The notes under the pieces are model-generated. The model had not been told where the DNA came from. It did no database searches and saw nothing but the letters and a program-made list of their open reading frames with translations. The translations under genes were made by a program, and so were the position numbers. A stretch of DNA of 64,000 bases from Nocardioides ginsengisegetis (GTDB taxonomy: Bacteria > Actinomycetota > Actinomycetes > Propionibacteriales > Nocardioidaceae): contig NZ_JACGXA010000003.1 of NCBI RefSeq assembly GCF_014138045.1, positions 310,001 to 374,000 of the forward strand. The letters run 5' to 3'. Below are positions 9,948 through 12,437 of the stretch, one piece after another. Each line of letters starts with the position of its first letter. Positions within the stretch are counted from its first letter, which is position 1.

Positions 9948-11213
9948 TCAGACCCCGATGTTGTGCTGGAAGTGGGCCTTGTTGGCGCGGTAGCTCTTGT
10001 ACGCCGTCCGCCACTGGACGCGGTTGATGTAGGGCTCGGAGGGGTCGAAGCGCTGCTGGTTCCACGGCTCGAAGTAGCTGATCAGCGTGGGCTTGTCGCC
10101 CTTCTTGTCATAGCCGCGGCCCACCTGGAAGTGCCCGGAGGCGTCGTCGTCGAGGTAGGGGTAGTACTTCTTCAGCAGGATCGGGTGGAGCACGAGCGGG
10201 GCGTGGTAGTCGACGATGTGGCGCATGGTCAACAGCATCCACTGGTTGAAGGTCCAGTCGCCGATGTCGAGCACGACGTAGGGGCCGGCGTGGTCCTTGC
10301 GGTCCCAGCCGGTGCTGTTGTTGACCACGCGGACCATGTCGCTGATGGCGGTGCCGCCGCTGGTGGTGTTGAGCTGGTCGGCCCAGTAGGCCTGGCCCTT
10401 GTCGACGCCCTTCCAGCCCCAGGTGATCATCTGCATCGACGTCGGGCCGCACCAGTAGGTGCGGGTCTGCTCGGCCGTCTGCTTGGTGTCGAGGATGACC
10501 CGGCGCGCGGGGTAGTCCTTCTGGGTCTTGGGCTGCGGCTTCGAGGGGCTGGGGCTCGCGGTGGGGCTCGGTGACTTGCTCGGGCTGGGCGAGGACGACG
10601 CGCCCTTCGCCGCGACCGGCGCGTCGGCGCGGGCCTCGGGGTGCTGGGCCAGGAAGCCGGCGGGCAGCGGGACGCCCTCGATCTCGTGGCGGAGCAACCA
10701 CACCTTGGCCACTGAACGGGCGGCCTGGGTGAGCTCCTGCCGCTCGGCGACGGCCCGCGCGGACGGCGACAGCGCCGCGGCCCGGTCCAGGGTGGCCAGC
10801 ACGTCCAGGTCGCCGGTGGTGGAGCCCCCGGCGGGCCGGGCGGCGATGGTGCGGGCCGCGACGGCCATCCGGGCCTGCACGGTGGCCGGGCTGCTCTCGG
10901 TCCAGCCCGAGTGCAGGCAGTAGGTCTGGCCCTGGAAGTCGGCGCAGCGCACCAGCCCGCGCACGAGTGCGTCGGTGGTGGTCTTGCCGGTGATGCGGCC
11001 CAGGGTCCGGCCCTGGGCGACGACGCGGTCCACCTCGGCGCGCAGGTCCGCGGTCAGCGGGCCGTAGCCGGTCGCCTCGCCCGGCAGGGCGGCGTACTGC
11101 TGCTTCCCGGAGGGGCGCAGCGCGCCCTCGTCACCCCCGCCGCGCGGGATGAAGGGGGTGGCGGCGAGCAGGACGGCGAACGCGCCGATCGCGATCGTGC
11201 GGGGGCGGGGCAT
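9948..11213 (-). CDS. Secreted C39-like cysteine peptidase domain protein
   Basis: A 421-residue exported protein. ATG 11211-11213 (MPRPRTIAIG) gives a proper signal or anchor helix at about 5-22; the frame's longer 5' extension lacks support. Residues 40-200 are helical and of unknown type, 200-235 are a Ser/Pro/Lys linker, and the C-terminal 190 residues match the peptidase C39-like fold. The catalytic cysteine is in TYWCGPTSMQMITWGW, and the likely histidine is in GHFQVGRGYD followed by an aromatic strand. Such secreted domains cleave peptides or cross-links in the cell wall. It is co-transcribed with the lipoprotein gene one base downstream. Family assignment is from motif order only. Confidence 0.75.
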   Translation of the reverse strand: MPRPRTIAIGAFAVLLAATPFIPRGGGDEGALRPSGKQQYAALPGEATGYGPLTADLRAEVDRVVAQGRTLGRITGKTTTDALVRGLVRCADFQGQTYCLHSGWTESSPATVQARMAVAARTIAARPAGGSTTGDLDVLATLDRAAALSPSARAVAERQELTQAARSVAKVWLLRHEIEGVPLPAGFLAQHPEARADAPVAAKGASSSPSPSKSPSPTASPSPSKPQPKTQKDYPARRVILDTKQTAEQTRTYWCGPTSMQMITWGWKGVDKGQAYWADQLNTTSGGTAISDMVRVVNNSTGWDRKDHAGPYVVLDIGDWTFNQWMLLTMRHIVDYHAPLVLHPILLKKYYPYLDDDASGHFQVGRGYDKKGDKPTLISYFEPWNQQRFDPSEPYINRVQWRTAYKSYRANKAHFQHNIGV

Positions 11214-11323
11214 GGCGACGAACCTCGAGACCGGGGAAGGGGAGGGAGCCTCCCCACTGTCCCCGCTGACCTCACGAGTAGTCAAGCGCAACACCAGTCA
11301 CAGGCGTGGGGGGCTGGAATGAG

Positions 11324-11356
11324 CGAAGCCGCGGACCCATCGGGCTCGCGGCTTCG
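11324..11356 (-). terminator. Terminator hairpin after the tRNA-Gly array
   Basis: A ten-base outer stem (11324-11333 with 11347-11356) plus an inner CCC/GGG stem encloses the loop ATC. It lies at the 3' end of the second degenerate tRNA copy; no comparable terminator hairpin separates the true tRNA from the copies (the hairpin inside each copy is part of its tRNA-like sequence), so all three could be one transcript. Confidence 0.6.
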
Positions 11357-11359
11357 GTG

Positions 11360-11434
11360 CGGAGCGGATGACGAGACTCGAACTCGCGACATCGACGTTC
11401 GGGGGAGCGTCGCGCTCTGGAGCGCGACATTGGT
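11360..11434 (-). pseudogene. Degenerate tRNA-Gly(CCC)-like copy, distal
   Basis: This copy has the same sequence as the proximal one, 87 bases away, except that the tail reads CCG in place of CCA. The T arm, variable region and 3' acceptor strand are identical to the true tRNA. The anticodon stem is kept as CGACG/CGTCG around a 10-base loop holding CCCCC. The D loop is cut to two bases, and only four of seven acceptor pairs remain. It is followed directly by a terminator hairpin. Whether it is an RNA of use or a decaying copy cannot be told from one genome. Confidence 0.65.
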
Positions 11435-11534
11435 GGGGGGAGGGACTGGAGCGGATGACGAGACTCGAACTCGCGACATCGACGTTCGGGGGAGCGTCGC
11501 GCTCTGGAGCGCGACATTGGTGGGGGGAGGGACT
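11361..11534. repeat. Two perfect 87-bp tandem repeats built on tRNA-Gly
   Basis: Units 11361-11447 and 11448-11534 are identical as read. The next 36 bases (11535-11570), inside the true tRNA, repeat the start of the unit exactly. Each unit is a 75-base tRNA-like sequence plus a 12-base C-rich spacer. The 444-base gap 11214-11657 therefore contains a terminator, two repeats, the tRNA and its promoter region, and no protein gene. Confidence 0.9.
11447..11521 (-). pseudogene. Degenerate tRNA-Gly(CCC)-like copy, proximal
   Basis: It starts 12 bases after the CCA end of the true tRNA and can be aligned over its whole length: 5' acceptor strand ACCAATG (true tRNA GCGGATG), D stem GCTC/GAGC with a two-base loop, anticodon stem CGACG/CGTCG (true CGACC/GGTCG, a compensated C-G to G-C change), a ten-base loop, then an identical variable region, T arm, acceptor 3' strand and encoded CCA. 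The segment GTCGCGCT/AGCGCGAC can also form an alternative 8-bp hairpin. It cannot be a standard decoding tRNA, because three acceptor pairs are broken and the D loop is missing. Confidence 0.7.
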
Positions 11535-11609
11535 GGAGCGGATGACGAGACTCGAACTCGCGACATCGACCTTGGGAAGGTCGCGCTCTACCAACTGAGC
11601 TACATCCGC
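11534..11609 (-). tRNA. tRNA-Gly (anticodon CCC)
   Basis: A complete cloverleaf of 73 bases plus an encoded CCA. The acceptor is GCGGATG/CATCCGC with discriminator U, the D stem GCTC/GAGC, the anticodon stem CGACC/GGTCG around TTCCCAA (anticodon CCC at positions 3-5 of the loop), and the T arm GCGAG-TTCGAGT-CTCGT with one G-U pair. U73 and the CCC anticodon agree with glycine. A perfect 8-bp hairpin (11611-11628) lies directly before the 5' end and a TAGCAT -10-like box further upstream (11634-11639). Confidence 0.95.
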
Positions 11610-11657
11610 ACGCCGGTCGGGACCGGCGGGAGGATGCTACCCCACCTGAGGCGCGTC

Positions 11658-12437
11658 TCAGTCGAGGGTGGGACGGCCCAGGACGGGGTAGCGCGGGCTG
11701 ACCCGGTCGCCCGAGGAGCGCCCGGTGAGGCGGCGGTGCACCCAGGGTGCGGCCGACTCGCGGACCCAGGTCACGTGCTCGCGCAGCTGCTCGCCGCGGG
11801 GCGGTACGACGACCTCCGCGAGCGGGTGCGCCTCGAGGGCGTGCTCGAGGCCGAGGACGTCGAGCACCTCCGTCGCCATCCGCTGGTGGCCGGCCGGGCC
11901 CATGTGCATGCGGTCGGCGTCCCAGTAGCGCCAGTCGCGGTACTCGCGCAGCCGCCAGAAGTCGACGATGTCGGCGCCGTGCCGGTCGGCGGCGGCGCGG
12001 ACGAGCTCGTTGTAGAGCGCGAACCGGCCGCGCATCGGCCGGTAGATCGCCGAGCCGCCCGGGTCGAAGGCGGTCCACACGAGCACCCGCGCGCCGGTCG
12101 CGGCCAGCCGGCCGAGGGCGACGTCGTAGCGGTCGACCAGCCCGTCGATGTCGACCCGCGGCCGGAGGATGTCGTTGGCGCCGGCGTAGATCGTGACCAG
12201 GTCCGGCTCGAGGGCGAGGGCCGGCTCGAGCTGCTCGGCCAGGATCCCGTCCAGCTTGCGGCCCCGGATCGCGAGGTTGGCGTAGCCGAAGTCGTCCGTC
12301 CGTCCGGCGAGCACCTCGGCCACCCGGTCGGCCCAGCCACGCAGGCCGTTGGGCCGCGTCGGGTCGGGGTCACCGACGCCCTCGGTGAAGGAGTCGCCGA
12401 GGGCGACGTAGCGGTGAAACGAGGGAGCGGTCGACAT
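11658..12437 (-). CDS. SGNH/GDSL-family hydrolase
   Basis: A 259-residue SGNH-fold esterase/lipase with no signal peptide, so probably cytoplasmic. Block I is YVALGDSFTEGVGD (nucleophile Ser at about residue 15), block II the glycine in NLAIRGRKLDGIL, block III GANDILRP, and block V the Asp/His pair in DADRMHMGPAGH. These are the four conserved blocks in order. The ATG at 12437 has AGAAT about seven bases upstream, in line with a leaderless mRNA; an in-frame ATG three codons earlier (12446) is the alternative. It is divergent from dcd with 60 bases between the starts. The substrate is not evident. Confidence 0.9.
   Translation of the reverse strand: MSTAPSFHRYVALGDSFTEGVGDPDPTRPNGLRGWADRVAEVLAGRTDDFGYANLAIRGRKLDGILAEQLEPALALEPDLVTIYAGANDILRPRVDIDGLVDRYDVALGRLAATGARVLVWTAFDPGGSAIYRPMRGRFALYNELVRAAADRHGADIVDFWRLREYRDWRYWDADRMHMGPAGHQRMATEVLDVLGLEHALEAHPLAEVVVPPRGEQLREHVTWVRESAAPWVHRRLTGRSSGDRVSPRYPVLGRPTLD

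Follow-up and report, generated by a model that had tools for sequence, protein, structure and literature searches.

The window analysed here is a 64,000-nt stretch of the Nocardioides ginsengisegetis genome. According to ARAGORN and Rfam, its sole tRNA is tRNA-Gly(CCC), the gene for which is located on the minus strand at 11534..11609; it is intact, its CCA is encoded, and it was matched by Rfam RF00005 with 69.8 bits. Directly behind it, on the same strand, are two direct repeats of 87 bp that are 100% identical in the register of the repeat finder. In the register of the tRNA, unit 1 (11447..11533) ends in CCGCTCCA and unit 2 (11360..11446) in CCGCTCCG, and the two differ in the last base only (CCG in unit 2). 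Read 5' to 3' on the minus strand, each unit is composed of an 18-nt spacer, the hairpin GTCGCGCTC-CA-GAGCGCGAC, the linker GCTCCCCCGAAC, and the sequence GTCGATGTCGCGAGTTCGAGTCTCGTCATCCGCTCC(A/G), which is homologous to the tRNA and is a verbatim copy of it from the 3' strand of the anticodon stem onward. In unit 1, the hairpin was located at 11496..11515 as an inverted repeat and by folding, and its 3' arm is the strand that spans the D stem and the anticodon stem of the tRNA. The linker of this unit occupies 11484..11495 (as judged from the alignments and the list of linkers), and the verbatim copy (11447..11483) includes the 3' strand of the anticodon stem, the T arm, the 3' strand of the acceptor, and the CCA end. 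The hairpin and linker of unit 2 (11409-11428 and 11397-11408, together 11397..11428) were located with the inverted-repeat finder. Only after the last unit, at 11325..11355 on the minus strand, is there a hairpin of high predicted stability (-23.1 kcal/mol, z -2.9); it is a possible terminator without a T run. The array is followed by the gene for a C39-like peptidase (9948-11294, minus strand). By eye, a promoter-like motif (about TTGAC...GACAGTGG) was noted upstream of the peptidase gene, and it recurs in several species.

A preliminary description of this locus had reported tRNA-Gly(CCC) followed by two 87-bp tandem units, an intact T arm and 3' acceptor strand, a CCA end in unit 1, and a C-rich anticodon loop; all of these were found in the window. 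The tandem is real and not a single unit, since an exact 87-bp repeat is not due to chance and similar arrays recur in dozens of further assemblies, including single-contig ones. That the tRNA and the array share a transcript, as was also proposed, is plausible from the sequence. The arrangement is peculiar to this tRNA within its own genome: none of the other 45 tRNAs had its last 34 nt repeated within the following 600 nt (ungapped comparison; the best had 11 mismatches). A further match in the same genome (L004) was rejected as an array; it is an ordinary tRNA-Gly(GCC).

The units had also been described as near-full-length tRNA-like RNAs, a view that was not sustained. As judged from the alignments, the tRNA-derived portion of a unit extends only from the 3' strand of the D stem to the 3' end, while an unconserved spacer and a hairpin arm make up the 5' third. 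The region 5' of GAGCGCGAC is not conserved (its spacer identity is at the level of shuffled sequences), and it holds neither a conserved 5' acceptor strand nor a conserved D arm. ARAGORN did not recognize any of the units as a tRNA, whether in the window or in the 37 array loci submitted to it; it did call the true tRNA-Gly in each of these 37 loci and, outside the array, a tRNA-Arg in L033. No complete cloverleaf, the form that GlyRS would charge, was called in any unit by ARAGORN (window and 37 loci) or by Rfam (window). At the gathering score of Rfam, the true tRNA alone was matched in the 20 array loci submitted. At E ≤ 1, the tRNA matches in the window stretch were confined to the true tRNA, and weak matches to mir-4928 and the L21 leader, both below the gathering score, were taken to be chance. 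Most units keep the T arm, and unit 1 of the window has both this arm and the 3' CCA; nine of 71 units, from five loci, have C at T54 of the T loop. The preliminary description had pointed to a compensating change in the anticodon stem. The fifth pair is indeed G-C in place of C-G in the window, but the compensation is not kept, because over 34 units this pair varies (G-C in 17, A.C in 14, C-G in two, and G.G in one) and is non-standard in 15 of them. Nor was covariation of the stems across the genus, as had been put forward for examination, supported: among the 16 pairs of the consensus fold, no two-sided change was found in 34 aligned first units.

Comparison of the locus across Nocardioides, which had been recommended, revealed tRNA-derived arrays well beyond this strain. 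With a 296-bp query, matches were obtained in all 196 genomes of the genus that were searched (including the source genome), because all have a similar tRNA; loci from 130 of the 196 were examined by sequence. There was a match in 37 of these 130, one of which (L085) has a short partial duplication only, leaving 36 with at least one unit. Sixteen of these loci have one copy, 12 have two, four have three, one has four, one has five, and two have seven; at least two copies are therefore present in 20 of the 36, and the copy number is not constant across the genus. The first copied 3' half starts 46-79 nt past position 72 of the tRNA (36 of 130 loci, all with an intact tRNA); in L060, where a repeat is inserted, it starts 127 nt past this position. 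Besides L060, which is interrupted by that other repeat, the irregular loci are L049, which is decayed, and L010, which contains runs of N. The contigs of the draft genomes G091 and G135 (L030) break off within the array or at its edge, and copy numbers from drafts are therefore minimum values.

A covariance model was built from 34 units and applied at a threshold of E ≤ 1e-16. It matched 38 of 215 genus genomes, of which 37 carry units; the other, G070 (72.9 bits), was rejected because it scores like a true tRNA. Arrays that the model missed were seen by sequence in G194, G071, and G047 (L032, L060, and L049, respectively). Units are thus carried by at least 37 of the 215 genomes. In a search of 149 genomes of the family, a second genus was found to have arrays, in the two genomes G222 and G267. 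At the same threshold, which would miss diverged arrays and arrays on other tRNAs, nothing was found outside these two genera in the order sample (293 genomes, 37 genera) or the class sample (296 genomes, 114 genera). An exact pattern was found at 19 loci in GTDB contigs, 18 of them from Nocardioides and one from an actinobacterial MAG; it was not found in viral contigs, and spread by viruses was rejected. The array of G310 (L152) has three units and is 82% identical to the window over 1.7 kb, with a different spacer. Among the titles retrieved from the open-licence PMC literature, none described an array of this kind in Nocardioides.

Conservation within the units was assessed in 29 of 36 first units; seven aberrant ones were excluded, and spacers shorter than 8 nt were not compared. 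Identity between species was about 0.95 in the tRNA-derived parts. In the linker it was 0.718, compared to 0.507 in shuffled sequences, whereas in the spacer it was 0.440, compared to 0.426. The linker is pyrimidine-rich and mostly 12 nt long, its commonest forms being GCTCTGCCCACC and ACTCTGCCCACC; the commonest form in the genus was given as RCTCTGCCCACC. Its C content is 50%, versus 41% in the sequence that precedes the hairpin arm. A C-rich linker held open was considered, but the predicted accessibility did not support it: the predicted openness was 0.41 in the linker and 0.40 in the rest of the array (p 0.78; 30 of 36 loci). The 5' arm of the hairpin differs from species to species, yet its complementarity to the fixed 3' arm exceeds that of shuffled spacers (Fisher combined p 8e-7 over 38 units, with kinship not corrected for). 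Taken unit by unit, seven of 38 reached p ≤ 0.05, and six fell below the mean of their own shuffles. The anticodon loop is altered in 31 of 34 aligned units. The remaining three (L026, L029, and L032) represent a second type of array, with a longer linker that retains the CAAGGTCGAT of the tRNA, and they group together on a tree of dcd with 81% support. The period of regular arrays is 73-106 nt. Nine of 34 arrays run at their ends into a partial copy of the spacer, as tandem duplication predicts.

The T loop of the tRNA varies between species, and the units follow it. At T-loop index 16, the main variable base, all 71 units were identical to their own tRNA (units with N were excluded), and at index 17 this was true of 70 of 71. 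Fifteen array loci have a tRNA that departs from the commonest form at these positions; of their 24 units, 23 matched their own tRNA at both bases. On the weakly resolved dcd tree, in the form built here, the T-loop variant requires 11 changes among the 35 carriers of arrays. In L035, the acceptor stem of the tRNA is altered, and the unit carries the same alteration. The units and the tRNA therefore evolve in concert, being kept alike by recombination or by repeated duplication.

The history of the array was followed on the dcd tree, for which dcd was the sole marker used. It included 73 loci, of which 35 have arrays; five array loci that lacked a usable dcd were excluded. Support was weak for 31 of its 70 inner branches. 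The presence of arrays was not clustered on this tree: 27 changes were required, the mean after shuffling was 24.6, and 455 of 500 shuffles gave a number as low. Strongly supported branches force at least five changes in presence. Most genomes of the genus have no array, and with presence unclustered, the array is dispensable. Five of 93 loci without a full copy retain the block of hairpin arm and linker (one of these, L111, is at a contig end), and remnants or partial deletions were recognized in L040, L041, L042, L044, and L085. Such remnants and the scattered presence suggest that the array is probably lost frequently; it may be regained by exchange.

The hairpins that follow the arrays were also compared. 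The preliminary description had noted a terminator hairpin after the last copy only; the hairpin at 11325-11355 is strong, but a scan of 11200-11800 for T-run terminators found none. Besides the window, L024 and L028 have a strong hairpin directly after the last unit, and a similar one was noted by eye in L160. Over all loci, however, the hairpins after the last unit were no stronger (median -23.85) than those in random 160-nt windows (-23.2), and a general terminator after the last unit was rejected for this reason. The hairpin after the array was stronger than that before it in 32 of 34 cases, but the lengths searched were unequal, which biases this comparison. L140 has a strong terminator-like hairpin (CGAAGGGCCCCTCC...GGAGGGGCCCTTCGGTCTTC), with a T-rich tail, between the tRNA and the unit core; because it precedes this core, the unit of L140 may lie beyond the main terminator. 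The hairpin belongs to the repeated unit and follows both the tRNA and the unit. Other repeats were observed nearby. The palindrome-bearing repeat inserted before the first unit of L060 (ACCGGATATCCGGT) is present twice there; L011 and L014 have a similar CCCCGGATATCCGGGG palindrome behind the array; and intergenic repeats around GCGGTGAGCCACGCGG / GCGGTGGCCCACCCACATTC are found downstream of the tRNA in L064, L027, L033, and L085.

As the best explanation, held with moderate confidence, we propose that the array consists of 3'-trailer repeats of pre-tRNA-Gly(CCC) that are homogenised by recombination and in which the hairpin and linker aid the formation of the 3' end. The array would have originated by tandem duplication of the 3' part of the tRNA together with the trailer. 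Its growth, shrinkage, loss, and identity to the tRNA would result from recombination between the shared segments of ~37-50 nt. Transcription would include it in the tRNA precursor as a 3' trailer, which would then be trimmed off. The hairpin and linker would be kept for their part in 3'-end formation, i.e. termination or trailer processing, with the Rho-dependent termination that occurs in the tyrT repeats of E. coli as a model. This last step is the weakest; a role in termination or processing is a guess, which fits the conserved hairpin and linker. In favor of the trailer-repeat explanation we count the units behind the intact tRNA across the genus, the linker conserved beside a divergent spacer, the match of the units to their own tRNA, the complementarity of the hairpin arms, the partial spacer copies at array ends, the lack of such repeats at the other tRNAs of the source genome, and the like layout in E. 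coli K-12. Counted against it are the null result on accessibility, the ordinary hairpins at the array ends, the arrangement in L140, the dispensability of the array, the lack of covariation, and the T54C units.

The main rival is an inert tandem duplication, in which slippage or recombination at the tail of the tRNA would have incidentally produced an array that is homogenised with the tRNA and has no function. The scattered presence, the remnants and partial deletions, the range of one to seven copies, the T54C units, and the lack of an array in most relatives are all consistent with it, and simple decay after duplication had already been suggested in the preliminary description. Against decay alone stand the conserved linker next to a spacer at the shuffled level and the units that track their own tRNA; this linker, and the hairpin kept in most units through differing 5' arms, also count against the inert reading, which we consider possible but somewhat doubtful. 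Alternatively, the units could be attR scars of mobile elements that integrated into the 3' end of the tRNA. The 3' part of a tRNA is a usual target of integrases, and attR sites share with the arrays a tRNA 3' part repeated downstream. In genome G158, moreover, a phage integrase (PF00589, E 9.5e-20) lies directly behind tRNA-Gly(CCC) (L113, G158:C1:6650-7790). Elsewhere in that genome, on a different contig (L274, G158:C59), a second 3' half of the tRNA precedes a homologue of the C39-like peptidase that stands behind the array in the window (52% identity). We infer that these contigs represent opposite ends of a single element; the integrase and the displaced half show that tRNA-Gly(CCC) is an integration site. 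The displaced half, however, keeps TTCCCAAGGTCGAT from the anticodon loop and is devoid of the GAGCGCGAC-linker block, whereas the arrays are short tandems in which the hairpin-linker block is conserved and the loop is altered in most units, unlike a fragment that continues the tRNA from a crossover in the anticodon loop. The units also equal their own tRNA and not an older version of it, and an integrase-like tblastn match behind this tRNA was obtained in the G158 locus only (one query, short flanks). These features argue against the arrays being integration scars, an origin that we regard as very improbable. Separately, integrase-like tblastn matches were found beside several other tRNA genes of the source genome (L219, L223, L232, and L238; PF00589 was confirmed in L219), which thus has several tRNA-linked elements or remnants.

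The units might instead act in trans, as small RNAs or sponges that are cut from the tRNA transcript and pair via the C-rich linker in the manner of 3'ETS fragments. Spacers of tRNA precursors can act as RNA sponges, and the linker is both rich in C and conserved; it is not predicted to be especially unpaired, though, Rfam offered at its gathering score nothing but the tRNA in 20 array loci and no credible other family in the window stretch, and both copy number and presence are unstable. Such a role appears improbable. More remote still is a non-decoding tRNA-Gly for peptidoglycan synthesis of the staphylococcal type, a role that had been raised at the outset with reference to staphylococcal tRNA-Gly with altered D loops and to a glycine bridge in Nocardioides walls. 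It could draw on the T arm, acceptor 3' strand, and CCA kept in unit 1; glycylation is implausible without a 5' acceptor strand, and the lack of a conserved D arm, the failure of the units to be recognized as tRNAs, the non-standard fifth anticodon pairs, and the absence of arrays from most of the genus make the chance of it negligible. A broader reading is that the array is a lineage-specific RNA module in which hairpin-linker-T-arm units, released from pre-tRNA-Gly(CCC), form a dosage-tunable regulator whose strength is set by copy number. This regulator could be a terminator, a processing decoy, or a small RNA, with recombination keeping the units identical to the host tRNA; we hold this joint reading to be speculative and rather unlikely.

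The closest known system is the tyrT/tyrV - rttR array of E. coli (rtT RNA, tpr), in which an intact tRNA is likewise followed by tandem units, with the tRNA 3' end reproduced verbatim at the end of every unit. Inspection of the sequence of the tyrV-rttR region of E. coli K-12 confirmed three repeats of 178 bp, all of which close with the final 19 nt of tRNA-Tyr. The copied part of the tRNA is longer in Nocardioides (about 37-50 nt), and the tRNA, phylum, spacer, and period (178 versus 73-106 nt in regular arrays) all differ. The Nocardioides units are probably non-coding; their periods are often not multiples of three, and coding repeats were rejected on that account. Rfam gave no rtT match in the window stretch or in 20 array loci. 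Given tandem units behind an intact tRNA that each end in its 3' end, we file the array as a new variant of the tyrT/rtT layout, by layout and not by descent, no kinship in sequence having been seen. To our knowledge, the E. coli tyrT repeats have no settled role. The 3'ETS-leuZ sponge resembles the present case in that a tRNA trailer is a possible functional RNA. We know of no repeat array there, and in Nocardioides a sponge role is putative. Variation in copy number has a counterpart in rtT RNA, where two strains of Paratyphi A are reported to differ in copy number by 175 bp (PMC2658671).

The arrays provide a case in which a tRNA gene evolves in concert with copies in its tail that are not tRNAs, a process that could alter the 3' half of the working tRNA. 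With a similar array now found in another phylum, in one to seven copies and absent in relatives, Nocardioides offers natural controls for the function of tRNA-tail arrays.
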